Positions 48,402 through 63,409 of a DNA stretch of 64,000 nucleotides are shown one piece after another (position 1 is the stretch's first letter; every line of letters starts with the position of its first letter). The DNA lies in contig NZ_BONC01000007.1 of NCBI RefSeq assembly GCF_016862515.1, positions 62,001 through 126,000 of the forward strand, written 5' to 3'. The notes below the pieces were generated by a model. It saw nothing but the letters and a program-made list of their open reading frames with translations. It made no database searches and had not been told where the DNA came from. Both the position numbers and the translations under genes were made by a program. Origin of the DNA: Asanoa iriomotensis (GTDB lineage: Bacteria > Actinomycetota > Actinomycetes > Mycobacteriales > Micromonosporaceae).

Positions 48402-51400
48402 GTGAGCAAGCGGCCGAAGACGGCGAATTCCTTCATGTCGCGTCTCCGCCGGCCAGCCGGCCGGCTTCGTGATCTGCCGATCTGGTCGAAGCTCGGCCTC
48501 ATCATGATCGTGCCGACCCTGGCGACGATCGTGGTTGGCACCAACGGCCTGATCGATCACATCGAGACGTCGGAGAACGCGGACCAGGCACGCGACCTCG
48601 CTGTTGTGGTGGAGGCGTCCGGGGATCTCGTCCAGAACCTGCAGAACGAGCGTTCCGCGGCGGCGCTGCTGCTCGGTGCCGATTCGACGGCGGACAAGCA
48701 GAAATACCGCACCGGCTTCGACAGCGCCCAACAGGCCGTCGAGCGCGTGGTCAACAACTACGCGACCCAGCGGGCATCCCTCAACGGCCTGCCGCCGAAC
48801 TTCGTCTCGACGCTCAACCAGATCGACGCCGGCCTCCAGGGCCTGCCGGGCGTGCGCAGCCAGGTGACGGGCGACAAGTTCGCCTTCACCGACGCGGCCA
48901 ACGCCTACAACGCTCTGGTCGACAACCTGCTCACCCTCCGCGACGGCGCCGCCCAGCTGGCCGCCAACACGTCGCTGAGCGAGCGGATGCGCGCCGTCGC
49001 GGCCGTCGCCCGGCAGAAGGAGTTCCTCTCGCAGGAGCGCCTCGTCGTGCTGCAGTCCTACAGCGCCGACGGGCGGATGAACCAGAACCTCAAGAAGGAG
49101 TTCATCGCCTCGCAGACCGGCCAGGTGCAGGCGAACGAGACGTTCATCGCCGTCGCCACCGTGCCCGAGCGCGAGCAGTACAACCAGACCGTCGCGGGTT
49201 CCGACCTGCGGTCGTCCACGTCGTACGCCGGCTGGATCACCGGCAGCATGCCGGCCGACGGCGCGCTGGCCGGCGCGCCGTTCACGCGTGACGCGTGGGA
49301 CAGTGCGCTGCTCGGCCACAGCCGGTTGATCCGCAGCGTCGAGCGGCGGTTCGACAACACGGTCGTCGACACCGCCACCACCCTGCGCGACGACGTGCAG
49401 CGCCAGGTCCTCATCGAGACCGGCCTGCTGCTGGCCATGCTCCTGCTGGCCATCCTGTTCGCGTGGTTGGTCGCCCGGTCGATGGCCCGGTCGCTGCGCG
49501 AGCTGCGGCACGGCGCGCTGGCGGTCGCGCAGTACGGCCTACCGCAAGCCGTGTCCAGGCTGCGTGACCCGGCGCTGTCCACGCAGATGTCACCGGCCCA
49601 ACTGGCCAACCAGATCGCCGAGCCGCTGCCCGTCCGCAGCAAGGACGAGTTCGGCCAGGTGACCGAGGCGTTCAACGCGGTCCACCTGGAAGCCGTCCGC
49701 ACCGCGGCCGAGCAGGCCGCCCTGCGTGCCTCGGTCGCGACGATGTTCGTCAACCTCGCCCGCCGTTCGCAGATCCTGGTCGACCGGCTCATCGGTCACC
49801 TCGACCGGCTGGAGCGCGGCGAGGAAGACCCGGACCGCCTGGCCGAGCTGTTCCAGCTCGACCACCTGGCCACCCGGATGCGCCGCAACGACGAAAACCT
49901 CCTGGTGCTCGCGGGTGCCGACTCGACCCGTATCCAGCGGGAGCCGGCCGCCCTGATCGACGTGCTGCGTGCCGCGCAGTCCGAGGTCGAGCACTACACC
50001 CGCATCGAGTTCGGCGTGATCGACCGCGACATCGAGGTGGCCGCGCACGCGGTCAACGACCTCGTGCACCTGGTCGCCGAGCTGTTCGACAACGCGACCG
50101 CCTTCTCGCCGCCCGACTCGCACGTCATGGTCGAGGCACGGCTGGTGGGCGACCGCGCAGTGCTCTACGTCGAGGACCGCGGCATCGGCATCACGCCCGA
50201 CCAGCTCAACGACCTCAACGAGCGGCTCGCCACGCCACCGATGGTCGACGTGGCCGTCTCCCGGATGATGGGCCTGGTCGTGGTCGCGCGGCTGGCCGCG
50301 CGGCACGGCGTCAAGGTCGAGCTGCGCCCCGCCGCCGACCGTGGCACGGTCGCCGACGTCGCCCTGCCTCCCTCGGTCCTGGTGCCCCGGGCACTGGCCG
50401 GGCGCGGGCCGCAGGTCGGCACGGCGTTCGAGGTGCCGGTCCAGCAGCAGGCGCCGGCCCAGGTCGCCCGGTCGTTCGGCGCGCCGCTGGCGCTGGAGAG
50501 CGGCCCGGTGTCCCGGTCCGACCGCGACTTCGCCGGTGCGGGCTCGGGTGGCGGTCTCGCCAGCGCGTTCGGCGGCCGGCCCGGCGACGGGCCGCCCAAC
50601 GGGTCCGGCGGGTTCGGCAACGGATCCAACGGCAACGGCAACGGGAGCCGCTCCGGCGCCGCGATGCCGGCCTGGTCCGACCTCACCGGCGCCGGCCCGC
50701 AGAGCGGTGGTGGCCTCGGTGACGCGTTCGGCTCGCGCCGCCGCGACGAGTCGCTGCCGCAGCGCCGCTCGACCGACGACTGGGCGATGGAGGGTGAGGT
50801 CACGGCCGGCCCGCAGTCGCCGTCGATCCCGCGCCAGACGCCTCGCGATGCCGGCACACCGTTCTCGGCGCCGCCGATGATCTCGGTGCCGCCGGTCATC
50901 TCGGTGCCACCGTCGACGCCCGGTGCCGCGGCCTCGCCGCGCCAGCCCGAGCCGTGGGAGCTGGGTGGCGGTCCCACACTGCCGCCGAGCGCGCCGGCGG
51001 GCCCGCCGATCGCCATGCCCGACAGCCCGGTCGTTCCGGGCCGGTCGGGTGGTCTGCCGGGTCGGGTGCCGGAGCAGCAGCCGGACAGCCAGCGCATCCC
51101 GCTGAGCCAGCCGCAGGCGGCCGCTGCGCCGCCGATGGCGGCACCGCCGGCCTCCGCACCGCCGCAGGCCAGCCCGGCGCACTATGGGCTGTCCGGTGCC
51201 GGCATGGGTGGGCCGCTCGGTGGCGCACCCGCGGGTGGCCAGGCACCGCCGGCGTGGCCGCCGGTCGCGGCCGAGCCGCAGCCGGTCGCCGAGCACGCCG
51301 GTGCCGGCTTCGACCTGACCGCCGAGCTGCCCCGGGTCGAGCGCCCGGCAGCAGCACAGCAGCAACCAGCCGTCCCGCCGATCATCCCGGCCACCAACAA

Positions 51401-52139
51401 GGCCCGGTTCGCCGACGAGACGATGGAACTGCCGATCTTCCGCGAGCTGGAGTCGGCGTGGTTCCGCACCCGCCGGGACGCGGCGGAGGAGAGCTCGCTC
51501 ACCCCGGCCTCGGCGCCGAGCACCGCGGCGGCTGCCCCCGCAGCCAGCGCGGCGCCGTCGACCGCCGACGCGCGGGTGGGCGGTGGAGCCACCGCGGCAC
51601 CGACGGAGCAGTTCGTCACCGTCGAGGCCAGCCAGCGGCTCACCAGCTCGCCGCAGTCGCGGACGATGCCCGCGACGGGCAGCCCGGTCGGTGGCGGCGC
51701 GCCCGCGAGCGGCCTGCCTTCGCGGCCGGTCCCGACGGGGCCCGCACCGCAACAGCGTCCGAGCGGCCTGAGCGACGGCAACGGAAACGGTGCCGCCCGC
51801 CGGTCCGATCCGGAGTCCTGGGCGACCGCCGCGGACGACGGGTGGCGGGCAGCCTCCGCCATGTCGGAGATGCAAGTGAACGAAACCACGCAGGCCGGCC
51901 TGCCCAAGCGGGTTCCGATGGCGCAGCTCGTGCCGGGCGGGGTCGACAAGGCGGCCTCCTCGGTGCAGAAGCGCACGCCGGAAGCGGTCCGCGGACTGCT
52001 CTCGGCCTACCACCGAGGTGTGCAGCGCGGTCGCACCCAGCCCAAGGACGAAACTTCGGATACGACTCCGGCCGGGCAGCCCTCCCAAGCTGGCCACGGT
52101 CCGGGTGCCGGGAGCGGTCAGAAGGAGCACGAACGATGA
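48402..52139 (+). CDS. Conservon sensor ATPase (CvnA-type histidine-kinase-like protein)
   Basis: A 1245-residue membrane sensor. Membrane segments lie near residues 28-50 and 340-362, enclosing an outer NIT-type (nitrate/nitrite sensing) helical domain, followed by HAMP, a helical dimer region ([16 protein letters not shown] near 487) and a HATPase with [13 protein letters not shown] near 560 and DRGIGI. No phosphoacceptor His of the classical H-box is evident. Residues from about 670 on are a long Pro/Gly-rich linker ending in a conserved tail (DDGWRAA near 1146, [14 protein letters not shown] near 1166, YHRGVQRGR near 1203). It heads the four-gene conservon; GGAGGG precedes the GTG. Confidence 0.94.
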
Positions 52140-52540
52140 CAACGACGCAAGATCTCGGCTGGCTACTCGCCAACTTCGCCGACCGCGTGCCGGGTGTCGC
52201 GCACGCGATCGCCGTCTCCGCCGACGGTCTGCTCCTCGCTTCGTCGCGGGACCTGCCGCGTGATCGGGCCGACCAGTTGGCCGCGATCTCGTCCGGTCTG
52301 GTCAGCCTGACCCAGGGCGCGGCGCGCTGCTTCGAAGGCGGTGCGGTGCTGCAGAACGTCGTCGAGATGGACAACGGATTCCTGTTCCTGATGTCGATCT
52401 CGGACGGCTCCTCGTTCGCGGTTCTGGCGGCCCGCTCGTGCGACGTCGGCCAGGTCGGTTACGAGATGGCGTTGCTGGTCGACCGGGTCGGTGAGGCACT
52501 GACTCCGGCGCCGCGCACCGCCGCGGGCATGCTCGGCTAG
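52136..52540 (+). CDS. Roadblock/LC7 domain protein (CvnB)
   Basis: A 134-residue single Roadblock/LC7 domain: [31 protein letters not shown], and [20 protein letters not shown]. In conservons this small protein joins the sensor and the GTPase and probably acts on nucleotide exchange or hydrolysis. Its ATG overlaps the kinase stop (ATGA); GAAGGAG is upstream. Confidence 0.95.
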
Positions 52541-52634
52541 TCGTTCCAAAGACGGCGCACCACAACAACACAAAGACGCGACGGGTCCCGATCGATCGGG
52601 CCGTGCGGCACGGATGCGAAGGAGGTGAGCGGCG

Positions 52635-53012
52635 ATGACCGACCGGGACGAGCCAACCGGCGCGCTGGTGCGGCCGTACGCCGTCACCCGCGGACGCACC
52701 CGGCCCCGGCTCGAGATCGCCCTCGAGGCACTCGTCGAGACAACGGTCCGCGGCCGCACAGCCAACTCGACCAAGGGTGGGCACGGCCGCGAGCACCAAT
52801 ACATCGCCGCGTTGTGCGACGGCCGGTTGCAGTCGCTCGCGGAGATCGCGGCCCGGATGCAGCTCCCACTGGGTGTTGCCCGGGTCCTGATCGCCGACAT
52901 GGCCGCCGACGGACTCGTCGCGGTCTACGAACCGACCTCACTGGAAGACACGAACGATGCGGTGGGCACTGAACTGCTGGAGAGGGTGCTGAGTGGACTT
53001 CGCAGGCTCTGA
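52635..53012 (+). CDS. DUF742 protein (CvnC)
   Basis: A 125-residue DUF742 protein with RPYAVTRGRTRP near the N-terminus and a winged-helix-like middle (LQSLAEIAARMQLPLGVARVLIADM). GAAGGAGG precedes the ATG. Its 3' end overlaps the GTPase gene by 20 bp. Confidence 0.94.
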   Translation: MTDRDEPTGALVRPYAVTRGRTRPRLEIALEALVETTVRGRTANSTKGGHGREHQYIAALCDGRLQSLAEIAARMQLPLGVARVLIADMAADGLVAVYEPTSLEDTNDAVGTELLERVLSGLRRL

Positions 53013-53601
53013 CGTGACGCACCGCCCGAGCGCTGGCCGTGTGACGTCGGCGAAGATTGTCATCGCCGGTGGGTTCGGCGTCGGCAAGACCACGCTGGTC
53101 GGGTCGGTGTCGGAGATCACGCCGCTGACCACCGAGGCCATCATGACCTCGGCCGGCGTCGGCGTCGACGACACCCGGCAGGTGCCGGGCAAGACGACCA
53201 CGACCGTCGCGATGGACTTTGGCCGCATCACGATCGATCGTGACCTGATCCTTTACCTGTTCGGCACACCTGGCCAGACGCGGTTCTGGTTCATGTGGGA
53301 CGAGTTGGTCCGAGGCGCGATCGGGGCGATCGTGCTGGTCGACACGCGCCGACTAGCCGACTGCTTCGCCGCGATCGACTTCTTCGAGCATCGCCGCCTG
53401 CCGTACCTGGTGGCGATCAACTGCTTCGACGGGGTCCAGTACCACGACCCGCAGGACGTTCGCGATGCCCTCGCGATCTCCAGCGACGTGCCGGTCGTGG
53501 CCTGTGACGCCCGCAACCGCGACTCCACCAAGCACGTGCTGATCAGCCTCGTCGAGTACGTGCTGAGCATGCGCCGGTCCCGCGCGGTCGCCCCCGCCTG
53601 A
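52993..53601 (+). CDS. Ras-like GTP-binding protein (CvnD)
   Basis: A 202-residue small GTPase, the effector of the conservon. G1 is GGFGVGKTT near residue 27, the switch region DDTRQVPGKTTTTVAMDFG near 57, G3 FGTPGQTRFWFMW near 90 and G4 NCFD near 138 instead of NKxD, a variant usual in this family. No lipidation motif is seen. GTG start inside the DUF742 gene. Confidence 0.95.
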   Translation: MDFAGSDVTHRPSAGRVTSAKIVIAGGFGVGKTTLVGSVSEITPLTTEAIMTSAGVGVDDTRQVPGKTTTTVAMDFGRITIDRDLILYLFGTPGQTRFWFMWDELVRGAIGAIVLVDTRRLADCFAAIDFFEHRRLPYLVAINCFDGVQYHDPQDVRDALAISSDVPVVACDARNRDSTKHVLISLVEYVLSMRRSRAVAPA

Positions 53602-53643
53602 CGGCGGGCGACCGGGGGTCCGGCACACCCACCCACAGCAGCG

Positions 53644-53680
53644 AGAAGCCCCACCGCCTCGGCGGTGGGGCTTCTTTCGT
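53644..53680. terminator. Intrinsic terminator after the conservon
   Basis: AGAAGCCCCACCGCC (53644-53658) and GGCGGTGGGGCTTCT (53661-53675) pair over 15 bp, with TTCG after it. It separates the conservon from the convergent lipoprotein gene. Confidence 0.9.
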
Positions 53681-53691
53681 GCGGGGACCGC

Positions 53692-54897
53692 TCAGCTGAT
53701 GCGGATCCAGGCCGAGCCGTTGACCTGGAAGACGGCCAGCGAGTCGGCGGTCATGCCGCCGTGCTTGATCGGCTGGAAGTCGTACGAGCCGGCGATGCCC
53801 TCGGTGATCAGGTTTTCCAGGTAGACCCGGACGCGGCCGCGGTCGACGCTGCGACCCAGGCGCGCCGCGTTGGCGATCAGCCGCACGGCGTCGGAACTGT
53901 AGGGCGCGAAGCCCCGGAACGCGCCGTGCTTCTGGATGTAGCGGTAGATGAAGTCGCGTCGGTCCAGGTCGGCCATCGTCGTGTCGGTCAACGACATGCC
54001 GGCCAGCGACGCGGGGTGGATGGCGTACGCCTTGTCCACGGCGTTCAGGTTGTCGCCCGCCAACGTGTCGTCGGCGACCGCGCCCGGGTCGAAGATGAGT
54101 TGATCGCCGAAGCTGCGCCCCCGCACCGCCTGGGCCGCCGCCCCGGTGTCGGGCGCCTGCGCCCAGATGATGATCGCGTCCGGCTTCGCGTCGACCACTC
54201 TCTGCGCGGCCGCGTTGAAGTTGCTGCCGGTTGCCGGGAGCTGGGCGTCGGCGACGAGGGCGCCGCCGAGCGCCTTGCGCAGCGCGGCGATGCCGGCCTT
54301 CCCGTAGGCACCGCCGGAGTAGAGGACGCCCAGCTTGCGCAGGTTCTGCCCGCTCGCCAGGTCGGCCATCATCCGCGCGATGTCTTCGGCGTTGGGCTGG
54401 AGCTTGTAGATGTAGGTGCGCTGCGCCAGCGGCGTGACAAGGCCGTCGGCGGAGCCGAGCGAGATGAACGGCACCTGCTCGGTCTGCGCGACCTTGAGCA
54501 TCTCCAGCGAGGTCTCCGCCATGATGCCGCCCATCAGCGCGTGGACGCCCTCTTTGCCGACGAGCTCGGTCGCCTGCTGTGCGGCGGTCTCGGGCCGGCT
54601 GCCGTTGTCGCGGTAGATCATCTTGATCCGGCGCCGCAGGTTGCCGACCGGCACGCCCTCTTCGTTGAGCGTGTCGACGGTGATCCGCAGGGCGCGCTCC
54701 TGCAGGACGCCGTGCGCCGCGCCGGGGCCGGTAAGCTCCAGGCTCGCGCCAATGATGAGCTCCTCGGAGCCCCGCGTCGTCGGGCCCGGGCTGTTGCTCT
54801 CGTCGGCACCGCAGGCGGCGGTGAACAGTGTCCCGGCGGCTGCCACAAGGACGCCACGCCGGGTCATCTGGGTCCGGCCGATCGCCGGCTTCGCCAT
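53692..54897 (-). CDS. Branched-chain amino acid-type substrate-binding lipoprotein
   Basis: A 401-residue periplasmic-binding protein of the LivJ/type 1 class. The signal has a twin-arginine run (TRRGVLVAAAG) and lipobox TAAC near residue 27. SLELTGPGAAHG, GKEGVHALMGGIMAE and AIIIWAQAPDTGAAAQ are family features. No permease or ATPase gene is adjacent, so it may serve a distant transporter or act as a sensor part. The ATG at 54897 is chosen to place the signal; an upstream start would spoil it. It follows the IS110-like gene by 108 bp. Confidence 0.88.
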   Translation of the reverse strand: MAKPAIGRTQMTRRGVLVAAAGTLFTAACGADESNSPGPTTRGSEELIIGASLELTGPGAAHGVLQERALRITVDTLNEEGVPVGNLRRRIKMIYRDNGSRPETAAQQATELVGKEGVHALMGGIMAETSLEMLKVAQTEQVPFISLGSADGLVTPLAQRTYIYKLQPNAEDIARMMADLASGQNLRKLGVLYSGGAYGKAGIAALRKALGGALVADAQLPATGSNFNAAAQRVVDAKPDAIIIWAQAPDTGAAAQAVRGRSFGDQLIFDPGAVADDTLAGDNLNAVDKAYAIHPASLAGMSLTDTTMADLDRRDFIYRYIQKHGAFRGFAPYSSDAVRLIANAARLGRSVDRGRVRVYLENLITEGIAGSYDFQPIKHGGMTADSLAVFQVNGSAWIRIS

Positions 54898-55005
54898 CTG
54901 GTGCCGCCTCTCCACAGCCCGGCGACGCCCGTCGCCAGATACCACGCGGGTATGCTCCCGGGCCCGCAGGCCCGCCGTCAAATCGCGGTCATACCCGTCC
55001 GGGTG

Positions 55006-57690
55006 TCACGTCCTGGCCGACCGGTATTCGTATTCCTGGCTCTCGTCGCGTCCACCGTGGTCACGGCTGAAGTCCCAGCCACCGGCGGCCTCGCGACCCG
55101 GGCGACCGCCCACCGCGTAGCCGCCGATCTCCTGACCGCGGCGCCAGCCGCGGAAGTAGCCGGTGGTGTGCGCCGCGATGCTCGCGGCGTCGCGGACGAT
55201 CCGCAGTGGCCGTTCCTCGCGCAGCGGCGAGCCCGGCACCAGGTTGGCCTGCGGCACGCGGCGGGGCAGGCCGGACTGCGTCTCCAGGCCGATGGACGGC
55301 GAGGAGGCCTTCTCGGCCGCGCGCCAGCCGTTGTCGGCGACCGACGACCAGGCGAGGTCCTCTTCCTCCTCCGGTTGGCCGGTGAACCACGCGGACCGGG
55401 CCGCCGCGAAGATCAGCAGGTCGCCGTCGCCCTCGTCGGAGACCGGCGGCGCGCTGATGCCGATGGGCAGCTGGTGGCTGCCGGTGTCGCTCGGGTTCTC
55501 CACCAGGCGCAGCGGCGGAGCCTCGTAGCGCGCGGCGTGGTCGGGCCGCTCGGCACGGCTGCGTGAGCGGGTCTCCCGGGGGCCGTCGTCGCGCAGCGCG
55601 CGGTCGGCCAGCGGCGGCGGCTCGACCAGGCGCAGGATGGGCGGCTCCGGCGGCATGTCGTCGGCCAGCCACGGCGGGGTGACGCGGTCGTCGCCGACCG
55701 GCGAGTAGGTCGGCCGGTCGAGCTCGCTCGGCGGCAGCTCGCCCAGGTCGGGGAAGCGCGGCTCGCCGTTGGCCCGCTCGTCGGAGGTGTTGTCGACCAG
55801 CGGCCAGTTGGCCCGTGCGCCGGGCTCGGGCCGCGGTGCGGGCACCGGGACGCTCAGGTCGGTGGCCTGGAACCCGGTGACCGGCGGCTCGGGCGGCGGG
55901 CTCGCGGCCGGGCGGCCGTTGACCCGGGGCGGGATCACGGTCGGGCGCTTGCGCTCGGCGCGTGCCGAGTTGATCGCCGCGTTGGTCAGCGTGGCCCGGA
56001 ACGGCTCGCCGGCCTCGGCGGGCGGGATCGTCGGCCGCTGCGCGGGGATCGGGGTGATGCCCGGCGGCGGGGGCGGCACGGAGACCGGCCGGTTGGCCGG
56101 GCTGCTGGAGACCGGGCGGCCGGGCAACGGCGTCGCGGACGCGGCCGGTGCCGCCGGGGCCGGTGCCGCCGGCGGCTGCAGCGTGGCCGGCTTCGGCGGC
56201 TCTGGCATGCGTGGCGGCTCGGGATTGCGCGGCTGCTCGTAGCGGCTGGTCCCGTCGAAGCCGGTCGACCAGGCGTGGCCGGGGCTGCGCGACGGCATCG
56301 GCGTGCCGCCGGCGGGCGTCGGCGCGTTGAGGGCGGCCGGCGAGATCGGTGTGGACGCCGGCGGCTCGGTCGAACGGGCCGGCTCCGCGGCGCGGCTCGC
56401 GGCGCGGGACTCGGACCGGGTCGGGGTGCGCTGCTCCGTCGCGCGCGCGGCGGAGCGGGACGCGGCCGGAACCCGTGGCGCGTTGGGCGGCCGCACCGGG
56501 TTGCCGGGCCGTTGCGGCTCGGACGGGCGGGGCGGCTCGGCGAACGGCGCGGTGGACGTCGTGGACAGCGGCGTGGGCGCGGTCGGCGGCGGCGCCACCG
56601 GCGCCGGAGCGACCGGCGGGGTGGTCAGCGCGCGCGGTGTGGTGCTCGCCGCGGCCGGCTCCGGGCGGTGCCGGCGGCCGCTGCGGTCGGGCAGGGGCAG
56701 CGGCAGCGCGTGCAGCCCGGCCGGCGTGGTCGTCGTCTCGGTCTCGGTCTCGGCCTCGGGCTCCGCGGCGCGCCGCATGGGCCGGCGCGGCACGGCGGTG
56801 ACCGGGGTCGTGCGGGCGGCCAGCGTGGCCACCAGGGCCGCGCAGCCCTCGTCGCAGGAGCGCACCGCGGCGACGGCCTGGCGCACGGCGTCGGCCGACG
56901 GGCCGGCGAGCGCCTTGTTGACGGTGCCGCGGCGCGGTGTCTCGGCGATGGCGACCCGCAGCGCGGTGATCGCGTCGCGGACGGTCGCCTCGTCGCCGAC
57001 GCCCGCCGTGGTCAGCCGCTTGGCGACCGCCTCGGCGGCCGGCGGCAGGTCACGGCCGCGGGCGACCGCACCGGAGACCATGCCGGGCTCGGGCAACGCG
57101 TCGAGGACCGCGAGGGTCAACGGCTCGGCCGGGTCGGAGTAGGCGCGCAGAGCGGCCGGGTAGAGCTCGCGCAGCACCTCGCGCAGCGTGGCGGCGGCGG
57201 AGTGGCGGCCACCGGCCAGCGCGGAGTGGGCCGCCAGGATCGGCCGGTAGGGCGCGAGGTCGCGGGGCACCGGCAGGCCGACGGCGAAGATGGCACCCGC
57301 CTGCAGGGCGCGCGCGAGCCCGACCGCGCGGCGCTCGGCCGCCGGGGACTCCATCTCCTCAAGGGACTCGTCGTCGGCGAACCGCTCGGCGAAGTCGTCG
57401 ACCGCGTCGTCGTCGGCGATGGCCAGGGGCCGGCCGGCGGCGGACAGTAAGGACGTCACCTGGTGGTCGTCGCTGTCGGCGGCGATCGCGGCCGAACCTG
57501 GGCCGTTGGCCCGTTCGGCGAGCAGCGCGCCGAGCTCGGCGTAACCCGCTGGGTCGTCGGTGATCTCGCACACGTCGAGCAACCGCCCGGCGTCGTCGAC
57601 AACGGCAGCCGTCAGACCTGTGCCGGCAGTCGCCGGCCGACCCGTCGGTTCCGCTGATGCGAGACCGCAGTACACCCGCACGAGCGCCAC
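55006..57690 (-). CDS. IS110-transposase-like protein, apparently inactive, with Pro-rich linker and conservon-kinase-type tail
   Basis: An 894-residue protein. Residues 1-280 resemble an IS110-type transposase N-terminal domain: VRVYCGLASAE, the spaced DDAGRLLDV strand, a GLARALQAG helix and LREVLRELYPAAL near 175 followed by LAVLDALPEPG. The expected acids are missing or replaced (CGLA where GID is usual; SPAAERRA where KxDxxDA is usual). Residues 280-690 are Pro-rich. The C-terminus (from about 770) repeats the kinase tail: SAWF, DNGWRAA, GLPRRVPQANLVPG and YFRGWRRG. GTG start with GGGGAGGAGG 10 nt upstream. Function unknown. Confidence 0.75.
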   Translation of the reverse strand: MALVRVYCGLASAEPTGRPATAGTGLTAAVVDDAGRLLDVCEITDDPAGYAELGALLAERANGPGSAAIAADSDDHQVTSLLSAAGRPLAIADDDAVDDFAERFADDESLEEMESPAAERRAVGLARALQAGAIFAVGLPVPRDLAPYRPILAAHSALAGGRHSAAATLREVLRELYPAALRAYSDPAEPLTLAVLDALPEPGMVSGAVARGRDLPPAAEAVAKRLTTAGVGDEATVRDAITALRVAIAETPRRGTVNKALAGPSADAVRQAVAAVRSCDEGCAALVATLAARTTPVTAVPRRPMRRAAEPEAETETETTTTPAGLHALPLPLPDRSGRRHRPEPAAASTTPRALTTPPVAPAPVAPPPTAPTPLSTTSTAPFAEPPRPSEPQRPGNPVRPPNAPRVPAASRSAARATEQRTPTRSESRAASRAAEPARSTEPPASTPISPAALNAPTPAGGTPMPSRSPGHAWSTGFDGTSRYEQPRNPEPPRMPEPPKPATLQPPAAPAPAAPAASATPLPGRPVSSSPANRPVSVPPPPPGITPIPAQRPTIPPAEAGEPFRATLTNAAINSARAERKRPTVIPPRVNGRPAASPPPEPPVTGFQATDLSVPVPAPRPEPGARANWPLVDNTSDERANGEPRFPDLGELPPSELDRPTYSPVGDDRVTPPWLADDMPPEPPILRLVEPPPLADRALRDDGPRETRSRSRAERPDHAARYEAPPLRLVENPSDTGSHQLPIGISAPPVSDEGDGDLLIFAAARSAWFTGQPEEEEDLAWSSVADNGWRAAEKASSPSIGLETQSGLPRRVPQANLVPGSPLREERPLRIVRDAASIAAHTTGYFRGWRRGQEIGGYAVGGRPGREAAGGWDFSRDHGGRDESQEYEYRSART

Positions 57691-57752: not shown

Positions 57753-58823
57753 TCAGTCGCGCCAGTCCACAGCGGCAGAGATCTTGCCGATAATCGTGCG
57801 CCAGCCCAAACTTGCCGTTTGTGCCCCGATTTTCCGGAGTCGTCGCTTGGCCATGAAGCCGCCGATCCCGCCGCCGACCACGCCACGCAGCGCCTCGTCG
57901 AGGTCGTCGAGGCTGTTGCCGGGTGACAGCATGTCGAGCACCGAGGGCAGCCGCAACGCGTACGCCAGATCCCGCGCGACCTCGCCCGCCTCGATGATCA
58001 GCGGCGGGTCCCAGCTGTCGTGGCCGCCGCGCAGGTTCTCCACCACGAGGTCGAGCTCGTAGGAGTCCTCGTCGAGCGGAGCGACGTTGACCGGCTCGAT
58101 CCGCTCGGCCAGCGTGGCCCAGGTGTCGACCTGCGCGAGGTCGTGCGGCGCGCCCGAACGGATGAAGCTGACCAGGCCCTCGGCGCTGCGGAACAGGAGC
58201 AGCTTGCCGCGGTGCGTGAGGAAGACGGGGACCTCCTCGGCCGCTTCCTCTTCCTCTTCTTCTTCCTCTGCCTCGTCGGCGTCCGCCTCGTCCGCGGGCT
58301 CCTCGGCCTCGTCGCGGTCGGCGTCCTCGTCGTCCTCGTCGTCGTCCGCGCCGGCGCGGGCCTTGCGGCGCTCCTCGCGACCGGCCGCTTCGGACTGCTC
58401 GGCGAGTTCCTCGTCGGTGAAGAGGTCGGCGTCCTCGTCCTCCGCCTCGCGGGCGCGGGCGGCGAACAGGTCGTCGTCCTCGCGGTCGGAGGTGTCGGTG
58501 GGAGTCAGCTCATTGGACAGCCGGTATGCGCGAAGCGTGAACCCGGTGCCAGCGGGGAGCGCGACCTCGACCGGGTCGATCCGCAGCTCCTCCCAGAAGG
58601 CGCGCTGGTCGGCCGGGTCGACACCGGACTCGTCGTCGGAGTCGGTGTCCGGGTCGTCGTCGGAGGCCGCCTCGGCCGACTCCGCCGCCGCGGTCGCCTC
58701 AGCGGGCTCAGCCGCCTCAGCAGGCTCGGCTGCCTCGGCACCGGTCGTGGTCTCTTCGACCTCGGCCGCGGGCTCGTCCGAGGACGGCGACTTGGCCTTG
58801 GACCGGTTGGACTGGCGCGCCAC
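57753..58823 (-). CDS. Highly acidic actinobacterial protein of unknown function
   Basis: A 356-residue protein, about a third of it Asp/Glu in long runs (residues 15-75 and 150-205). Folded parts are AFWEELRIDPVEVALPAGTG near residue 80 and the C-terminal third (VFLTHRGKLLLFRSAEGL, then LPSVLDMLSPGNSLDDLDEA). Homologues are sometimes labelled primosomal or primase proteins, but no primase motif is present. The GTG has GGAGG 5 nt upstream. It is followed after 62 bp by the IS110-like gene, so the two are probably cotranscribed. Confidence 0.75.
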   Translation of the reverse strand: MARQSNRSKAKSPSSDEPAAEVEETTTGAEAAEPAEAAEPAEATAAAESAEAASDDDPDTDSDDESGVDPADQRAFWEELRIDPVEVALPAGTGFTLRAYRLSNELTPTDTSDREDDDLFAARAREAEDEDADLFTDEELAEQSEAAGREERRKARAGADDDEDDEDADRDEAEEPADEADADEAEEEEEEEEAAEEVPVFLTHRGKLLLFRSAEGLVSFIRSGAPHDLAQVDTWATLAERIEPVNVAPLDEDSYELDLVVENLRGGHDSWDPPLIIEAGEVARDLAYALRLPSVLDMLSPGNSLDDLDEALRGVVGGGIGGFMAKRRLRKIGAQTASLGWRTIIGKISAAVDWRD

Positions 58824-58866
58824 GCTGACCTCCGGGAGTGGTGTGTTTGGTGACCTCGCGCACGAA

Positions 58867-58958
58867 CACACTAGTGTGCGCCTGCGCCCGGCATCGACCG
58901 CACCCCGGGGGTGTGGGTTCCTGGCGTCGCGGGATCCTCACTAGTAGTCTTCCTACTT
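58867..58958. promoter_or_regulatory. Divergent promoter region with palindrome and PadR-type repeat
   Basis: CACACTAGTGTG at 58867-58878 is a perfect 12-bp palindrome. AGTAG-TCTTC-CTACT ends just before the padR ATG and covers TAGTCT, a possible -10, which fits autorepression by PadR. Confidence 0.4.
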
Positions 58959-61749: not shown

Positions 61750-63409
61750 CGACCCCGGTCGGCACGGGCCGCGCCAGCTCGGTCACCACGCCGTCGTCGA
61801 CCCGCAGCACCCGGTCGGCGACCGCGAGCAGGGCCGGCCGGTGTGCGACGAAGACGCCTGTGCGCCCGGCGAGCAGGCGCAGCGTCGCCTCGACCACGGC
61901 GCCCTCGGAGGCGGCGTCGAGCCGGGCGGTGGGTTCGTCGAGGAGCACGAGCGTCGCGTGTTCGCGGAGGAACGCGCGGGCCAGCGCGATCCGTTGCCGT
62001 TGTCCGCTGGACAGCCCGTAACCCCGCTCGCCGAGCATGGTCTCCCAGCCCTCGGGCAGGGCCTCGATCACCTCGTCGAGCGCCGCGGCCGACGCCGCCT
62101 TGTCGAGGTCGGTGTCGGCCGGCGCGCCGAGGCGGACGTTGTCGGCGACGGTGCCGGCGAACAGGTGGGCGCGCTGCGGCACCCAGGCGACCTCGCGGCG
62201 CCAGGCGGCGAGGTCGGCGGTGGCCAGGTCGACGCCGGAGACCCGCACCTGGCCGGCGGTCGGCGCGACGAAGCCGAGCAGGAGGGCGAGCAGCGTGCTC
62301 TTGCCGGCGCCGGACGGGCCGACGATCGCGACCCGCTCGCCGGGCTGGATGGTCAGGGACACATCGCGCAAGGCCGTCGTCCGGTCGTAGGCGACCGTCA
62401 CGCCGGACAGGACGATCGGCCCGGGCCGCGGGACCGCCGTGCCACCGGCCGCAGCCGCCGTGTCCGGCAGCGCCGAGAGCGCCTCGTCGAGGGCGGTCAG
62501 CCCCTCGAGGCTCGCGTGGAACTTGGTGCCGGCGGCCCGCAGCGGGAGGTACGCCTCCGGCGTCAGCAGCAGCACCAGCAATGCCACCTGCAGCGTGATC
62601 CCGCCGGAGAGCAGGCGCAGCCCGACCGGCACCGCGACCAGCGCCACGGAGATCGTCGCCACGAGCTCCAGCACGAGCGCCGACAGGAACGCGATCCGCA
62701 ACGTCTTCATCGTGGCCGCGCGGTGCGCGTCGGCCATCCGGCGCACCACGTCGACCTGGGCCCGGGCCCGACCGAACGAGCGCAGCGTCGGCAGCCCGCT
62801 CAGCATGTCGAGGAAGTGGCCGCCGAGCCGGGACAGCCGCCGCCACTGTCGCTCGGTGGCCGCCTGGGCCTGCCAGCCGACCAGCGCGCCGAAGATCGGG
62901 ATCAGCGGGATGGTCACCGCGACGATGACCGCGGAGGTCCAGTCGGCGAAGACCAGCCGGGACAGCACCGCGATCGGGATGGTGACGCCGAGCACGAGCT
63001 GAGGCAGGTAGCCGGTGAAGTACGCGTCGAGCCCGTCGAGCCCCCGGCCGGCCAGCGTGGCCAGCGAGCCGCCGCGCTGCCCGGCGAGCCAGGCGGGGTC
63101 GCGCCGGGTGACCGAGCCGAGCAGCTCGACCCGGAGCGCCTCCTTGACCGCGGCGGCGCTCCACGCGGTGACCGCGCCCTGCGCCCAGGCCAGCCCGGCG
63201 CGCGCCGCCACGAGGGCGACGAACAGGCCGAGCCCGGTGCGGTCGAGGCGGCCGCCGGCGGCCGCGGTGAGCACCGACGCGAGCGCGGTGGCCTGCAGCA
63301 CGACCACGACCGCGGTCGCCGTGCCGGTCAACCCGAGCACGGCGAAGCGGCGCCGGGTGGCAGGCACCCGGCGCATCAGCCGCGGGTCGAACGGTCGTCG
63401 GCGGCTCAC
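61742..63409 (-). CDS. cydD: Thiol reductant ABC exporter subunit CydD
   Basis: A 555-residue half-transporter that pairs with CydC. Six membrane segments, GPSGAGKST near residue 360 and LSSGQRQRIALARAFL near 460, followed by VLLDEPTARLD. The GTG at 63409 overlaps the cydB stop (GTGA), indicating coupling. The cydB-D-C order fits a cytochrome bd operon whose cydA should lie beyond the right edge. Confidence 0.93.
   Translation of the reverse strand: MSRRRPFDPRLMRRVPATRRRFAVLGLTGTATAVVVVLQATALASVLTAAAGGRLDRTGLGLFVALVAARAGLAWAQGAVTAWSAAAVKEALRVELLGSVTRRDPAWLAGQRGGSLATLAGRGLDGLDAYFTGYLPQLVLGVTIPIAVLSRLVFADWTSAVIVAVTIPLIPIFGALVGWQAQAATERQWRRLSRLGGHFLDMLSGLPTLRSFGRARAQVDVVRRMADAHRAATMKTLRIAFLSALVLELVATISVALVAVPVGLRLLSGGITLQVALLVLLLTPEAYLPLRAAGTKFHASLEGLTALDEALSALPDTAAAAGGTAVPRPGPIVLSGVTVAYDRTTALRDVSLTIQPGERVAIVGPSGAGKSTLLALLLGFVAPTAGQVRVSGVDLATADLAAWRREVAWVPQRAHLFAGTVADNVRLGAPADTDLDKAASAAALDEVIEALPEGWETMLGERGYGLSSGQRQRIALARAFLREHATLVLLDEPTARLDAASEGAVVEATLRLLAGRTGVFVAHRPALLAVADRVLRVDDGVVTELARPVPTGVGG

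Follow-up and report, generated by a model that had tools for sequence, protein, structure and literature searches.

A decayed IS110-type transposase domain joined to a CvnA tail: a candidate conservon accessory in Asanoa iriomotensis

Opposite a complete conservon in a 64,000-nucleotide stretch of Asanoa iriomotensis DNA (RefSeq assembly GCF_016862515.1, contig NZ_BONC01000007.1, forward-strand positions 62,001 to 126,000; hereafter the window), we find a protein, here called the orphan, that ends in the same C-terminal tail as the CvnA sensor kinase of the conservon and begins with a domain related to IS110-family transposases. The two genes and their shared tail are conserved across the family loci scanned, and the tail itself is found on many other CvnA kinases. 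We suspect that the orphan is most likely a conservon accessory of a new kind.

Results

The kinase and the orphan share a C-terminal tail

The kinase (48402..52139, forward strand; 1245 residues, with NIT, HAMP and HATPase_c domains over the Pfam cut-offs) and the orphan (55006..57690, reverse strand) close with the same ordered blocks, SAWF, D-x-GWRAA, GLP-x-RVP-x-A-x-LVPG and Y-x-RG-x-x-RG, and all of them lie where a preliminary description of this DNA had placed them. Given as kinase / orphan residues, with the orphan numbered on its mechanical open reading frame (ORF) of 902 residues, they stand at 1018 / 774 (SAWF), 1147 / 796 (GWRAA), 1166 / 815 (GLP), 1176 / 825 (LVPG) and 1203 / 853 (Y-x-RG-x-x-RG), the distance from SAWF to GWRAA being 129 residues in the kinase as against 22 in the orphan. 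On the DNA, the first kinase block occupies 51429..51464 (forward), where relatives have a similar block, and those from DDGWRAA to YHRGVQRGR occupy 51834..52034 (forward). The orphan tail, LLIFAAARSAWF ... DNGWRAA ... GLPRRVPQANLVPG ... YFRGWRRGQ, is encoded at 55132..55419 (reverse). A blastp comparison aligns 74 residues of the two tails at 38% identity (E 4e-11), their Smith-Waterman score of 139 compares with 73 for the top of 2000 shuffles, and an alignment of 45 tails selected from the family, those of kinases and orphans alike, has 23 invariant columns. Both window proteins thus carry what we define as the CvnA tail module (SxWF, DxGWxAA, GLPxRxP...LVPG and RG..RG at the C-terminal end), and by sequence comparison the two tails are homologous, far beyond chance. 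For the orphan tail, AlphaFold predicts a chain that is largely disordered and forms two helices (mean pLDDT 55.3).

Within the A. iriomotensis genome, a search with the orphan tail matches only the two places in the window at E <= 1e-3, and a broader tail profile at E <= 0.01 brings in two more, both weak: the genome's second conservon kinase (1.4e-8) and a 324-residue frame (4.4e-4). This second kinase, at L008:1441-3180 (G000:C84), is accompanied by a cvnB gene, and its GLP tail is divergent.

The tail is a general CvnA module

Among 41 genomes of the order, the orphan tail was detected in 20, at 37 places. Eight of these make up four pairs, the window's own and three comparable ones from family genomes, and the other 29 were fetched with their surroundings. 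The preliminary description had noted that GLP-RVP-type tails are known from conservon kinases, and 27 of the 29 tail genes directly precede cvnB in the manner of CvnA; 26 of them have clear CvnA similarity, the other being a 113-residue contig-end fragment (L109) without a kinase body, and cvnC, cvnD or both are also present beside 25. A wider tail profile matched 70 of 160 genomes of the order and 41 of 118 of the class, and two further regions (L210 and L211) hold three tail genes, all of them accompanied by cvnB, cvnC and cvnD. We conclude from these comparisons that the tail belongs to CvnA kinases in general, even if it goes unmatched in many genomes, and the unusual partner is therefore the orphan rather than the kinase. 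The idea that the tail is confined to the window's pair can be discarded on the same counts. Two CvnA kinases (L126 and L128) each contain two copies of the module in one protein.

Both exceptions among the 29 come from a single genome, G022. One (L108:2954-6226) is a LysR-family regulator, with HTH_1 and LysR_substrate over the cut-offs, that continues through a long proline-rich stretch into the tail, and the other (L129:5892-6272) is a 126-residue protein made up for the most part of the CvnA tail.

The orphan N-terminal domain is related by sequence to IS110-type transposases

The orphan likely starts at GTG 57690, behind GGGGAGGAGG, which gives 894 residues. From that start it comprises an N-terminal domain (57073..57690), a helical extension before which the hhalign match described below ends (56794..57072), a long proline-rich linker (55420..56793) and the tail, all on the reverse strand. 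Neither Pfam nor NCBIfam yields a match over cut-off in the window orphan, and NCBIfam has no family for it.

The preliminary description had considered this N-terminus to be of an entirely different kind from the kinase's, and several comparisons now trace it to IS110 transposases. Although the window orphan reaches only 13.4 bits against PF01548 (DEDD_Tnp_IS110), short of the cut-off of 29, its relative L161 passes with 39 bits, and six of 19 orphan N-domains give matches to this family below the cut-off (best E 0.0044). An N-domain profile built without IS110 members recovers two IS110 ORFs, L157 (7.6e-12) and L172 (3.4e-8), and hhalign matches the domain to 17 IS110 frames with 97.6% probability over columns 3-206. 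In a Foldseek search of 350,542 chains the top four matches are all IS110 recombinases (E 3.4e-3 to 1e-2, probability 0.84-0.91), with the next match at 0.22 and none below E 1e-3. All 14 weak N-domain matches that were re-examined, among 26 listed, are IS110 genes. Against PDB sequences the N-domain profile reached E 0.39 at best, and the best match in PHROGs was at E 0.071.

The catalytic residues have mostly been replaced. In an alignment of the first 315 residues of 20 orphans with IS110 frames, some of which are damaged (one row seemingly partly out of frame), the first catalytic aspartate of the DEDD tetrad is lost in all 20 orphans, which have alanine or threonine there, and the second is aspartate in all 20; the third position is A in 18, G in one and D in one, and the fourth is R in 16, I in one and D in three. 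The window orphan reads A, D, A, R in place of the acidic tetrad. Transposase_20, the C-terminal domain with the catalytic serine, has no match in the whole window orphan at E <= 5. These alignments and profiles lead us to conclude that the N-domain is a decayed IS110-family transposase. That the orphan is an ordinary IS110 element can be dismissed, given the loss of most catalytic residues, the unmatched Transposase_20 and the presence of one strong N-domain copy per family genome sampled.

The orphan faces the conservon in every scanned family locus that reaches it

We collected the best 80 of 203 relatives from one contig scan with the orphan's own tail, a design by which they are orphans; going by their genus names, we take all of these loci to be from Micromonosporaceae. 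The tail motif is present in all 80, at 73-94% identity over 95 residues, and among 42 selected family loci the N-domain is 62-91% identical to that of the window. The kinase C-terminus is reached in 73 loci, and in every one of these the kinase has the tail as well and is convergent with the orphan. In the other seven the contig stops short of the kinase tail: L057 and L068 extend as far as cvnD, and five break off before the conservon. Counting every locus that extends that far, the orphan faces the conservon in 75 of 75, and both tails are retained even where the genes are separated by other DNA, which in some loci amounts to about 7 kb at most.

Run against the 160 genomes of the order, the N-domain core profile matched strongly (E < 1e-30) in 21 genomes, all of the family and each with exactly one such place; the remaining 139 have no match at that level. 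For 19 of the 21, a tail match falls in a frame of the same length as that of the N-domain match; in the other two (G084 and G112) the matches lie on separate contigs. On the strength of gene order, then, the preliminary description's proposal that the orphan is a fifth component of the conservon is well supported.

A roadblock gene follows nearly every tail gene

The window's conservon consists, by Pfam and in order, of the kinase, the roadblock/LC7 protein CvnB (52136..52540; Robl_LC7 at E 2.4e-21), the DUF742 protein CvnC (52635..53012) and the small GTPase CvnD (ATP_bind_1; 52993..53601), all on the forward strand. The ATG of cvnB overlaps the kinase stop codon (ATGA). In all 72 junctions read, the overlap is ATGA or nearly so, an arrangement in which the kinase tail could meet nascent CvnB, and the two genes are out of frame with one another.

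In the regions L101-L129 and L134-L153, a sample that is not random in that 20 regions were hand-picked among the matches listed, mostly for their unusual look, 48 of 51 frames that bear the tail are followed immediately, on their own strand, by a roadblock gene. The exceptions are the two G022 genes and L144, a contig-end fragment where cvnB was not seen. The rule includes three tail kinases (L101, L102 and L147) beside which cvnC and cvnD were not detected; their roadblocks form one clade (100/100). It also includes orphans of two other genera (groups g30 and g31; four genomes), which are shorter (frames of 513-561 residues), bear the tail, share the N-domain at 30-32% identity, and each have a roadblock gene of their own directly behind them (L134, L136, L137 and L139). 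Robl_LC7 is over the cut-off in the two of these roadblocks that were tested, L134 and L136, and in a phylogenetic tree the orphan-linked roadblocks form a single clade apart from the others (100/100, branch 1.79). In two of the four genomes (G119 and G070) the orphan-roadblock pair faces the conservon.

Because the roadblock gene comes next even behind kinases with no detected cvnC or cvnD and behind orphans with a roadblock of their own, we infer that the partner of the tail is the roadblock protein, and most likely that the tail docks on CvnB. The preliminary description's suggestion that a common partner binds both tails thereby gains indirect support from gene order in this partly hand-picked set. 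In the family itself no second roadblock was found among 81 sources (the 80 loci and the window): the roadblock frame is single in 72, split over two frames in two (L031 and L080) and absent from seven whose contigs end. Two other conservons (L120 and L121) have the order A-B-C-D-B-C, with an extra pair of roadblock and DUF742 genes.

Discussion

Our working model for the orphan begins with an IS110-family transposase that would have lost both its catalytic centre and the serine domain at its C-terminus; the homology and the losses are read from sequence, and the order of events is our reconstruction. The disarmed protein would then have been joined through the proline-rich linker to the C-terminal tail of a CvnA kinase, a short and largely disordered module that probably docks on CvnB. 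By virtue of the same tail, the orphan could enter the CvnB-CvnD complex or compete with the kinase for it, and the former transposase domain may serve as a nucleic-acid-binding or dimerising output arm. Taken as a whole, the proposal that the orphan is a conservon accessory, an IS110 relative with a CvnA tail that docks to the CvnB complex, stands in our judgment at even chances.

Several loci weigh against this model. The preliminary description had named tail-bearing orphans with no conservon link as what would overturn its idea, and a few such cases do exist: in G022, neither the 12 kb surrounding the LysR regulator nor the 12 kb surrounding the 126-residue protein showed a conservon gene, and of the two remaining g30/g31 pairs of orphan and roadblock, that of G157 lies ~176 kb from the conservon and that of G105 is on another contig. 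The G022 proteins, together with the predicted disorder of a tail that has just two helices, would fit a tail that serves for localisation or clustering and has no fixed partner in the conservon, so that it simply places the orphan with the kinase. We consider this unlikely, as such a signal would not account for a roadblock gene standing next after 48 of 51 tail genes, among which are the g30 and g31 genes that encode no kinase, or for the invariant columns of the family tails. A different possibility is that the orphan competes with the kinase as a tail-bearing decoy on CvnB that damps signalling, its N-domain only dimerising. Its identical type of tail, a front without catalytic residues, the orientation toward the operon in all 75 scanned loci that reach it and the single copy in each family genome sampled would all suit a decoy. 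A dedicated roadblock from a clade distant from CvnB, as found with the g30/g31 orphans, would nevertheless be superfluous for a pure decoy, and the N-domain has been retained across the 42 selected family loci, so we regard this explanation as improbable. Much the least probable is that gene order alone is at work, with an old Micromonosporaceae synteny and a tail that is the functionless relic of a past duplication. The neighbouring genes, for an adenosine deaminase and an acidic protein (57753-58871), are likewise syntenic across the loci, and strong N-domain matches are limited to one family of the order sample; a relic, however, would hardly have kept the orphan tail so similar over the best 80 loci, or both tails despite the intervening DNA seen in some of them.

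Returning to the accessory model, two proteins that bear the tail without being kinases have a front that can be recognised, namely the orphan and the LysR fusion, and both fronts are of nucleic-acid-binding ancestry, which leads us to lean toward an output arm over a pure decoy, a choice that the evidence does not decide. A bolder and rather doubtful extension is that the CvnA tail acts as a transferable docking tag by which DNA-binding proteins are connected to conservon signalling. In that case the orphan, as a retired IS110-type recombinase, would supply the nucleic-acid-binding output missing from this conservon, and the LysR-tail fusion of G022 would be a second connection of this sort.

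Among known systems, the closest parallels are the conservon accessories CvnE (a P450) and CvnF (a GAF protein), which according to the accessible text of PMC13343842 lie four genes from cvnA and accompany kinases without NIT. The orphan fits this system in that it sits beside a full cvnA-D set, is single in each family genome sampled and shares the CvnA tail. It differs in that its partner kinase has NIT, its gene is convergent with the operon, and Pfam gives neither a P450 nor a GAF match in it. Since the window kinase has NIT, the orphan would differ in kind from CvnE and CvnF. To the IS110 transposases (IS621 and ISCro4) it is related in its N-domain by profile, by fold ranking and, in one relative, by a Pfam match over cut-off, and it departs from them in its mostly lost catalytic residues, unmatched Transposase_20, proline-rich linker with CvnA tail, and single copy per family genome sampled. 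The conservon also resembles G-protein systems of the MglA/MglB type: the accessible text of PMC13343842 terms CvnB an MglB-type roadblock protein, and gives its homologue MfpD as a GTPase-activating protein and the CvnC homologue MfpC as a likely guanine nucleotide exchange factor (GEF), whereas an earlier paper on cvn8 guessed, in the text accessible, that CvnB8 acts as a GEF (PMC8510531). Bacterial two-hybrid tests showed interaction among CvnA9, CvnB9, CvnC9 and CvnD9 (Komatsu 2006, as cited in PMC8510531). Unlike the situation described here, no tail-bearing non-kinase partner is described for MglA/MglB systems in the accessible text of PMC13343842 and PMC8510531; one of the two mentions only unstructured terminal regions in CvnA8, and the term "C-terminal" is absent from both main texts. 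Among the papers listed in a literature search, judged by title and abstract opening, no description of the orphan protein was found.

How conservons relay their signal onward is an open question, and the effector downstream of CvnD8 is still drawn as unknown in the accessible text of the 2026 CvnF8 paper (PMC13343842). The orphan suggests both a partner and an output arm that can be put to the test. A family-wide protein with the kinase's tail, accompanied in two genera by its own roadblock, also points to the conserved CvnA C-terminal module, and the orphan would represent a retained, catalytically disarmed relative of IS110 recombinases within a signalling system.

Neighbouring genes

Between the orphan and the conservon lies an optional neighbour, a Peripla_BP_6 binding protein (53692..54981, reverse strand; Pfam). 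A similar protein was detected in 16 of the 80 loci, and one like it also adjoins a second conservon in other family genomes (L103, L104, L105 and L145); a possible role would be to deliver a ligand to the sensor of the kinase. On the other side of the orphan, the acidic protein of 57753-58871, which has no Pfam match, was also detected next to the orphan in many loci of the family and in those of g30/g31.
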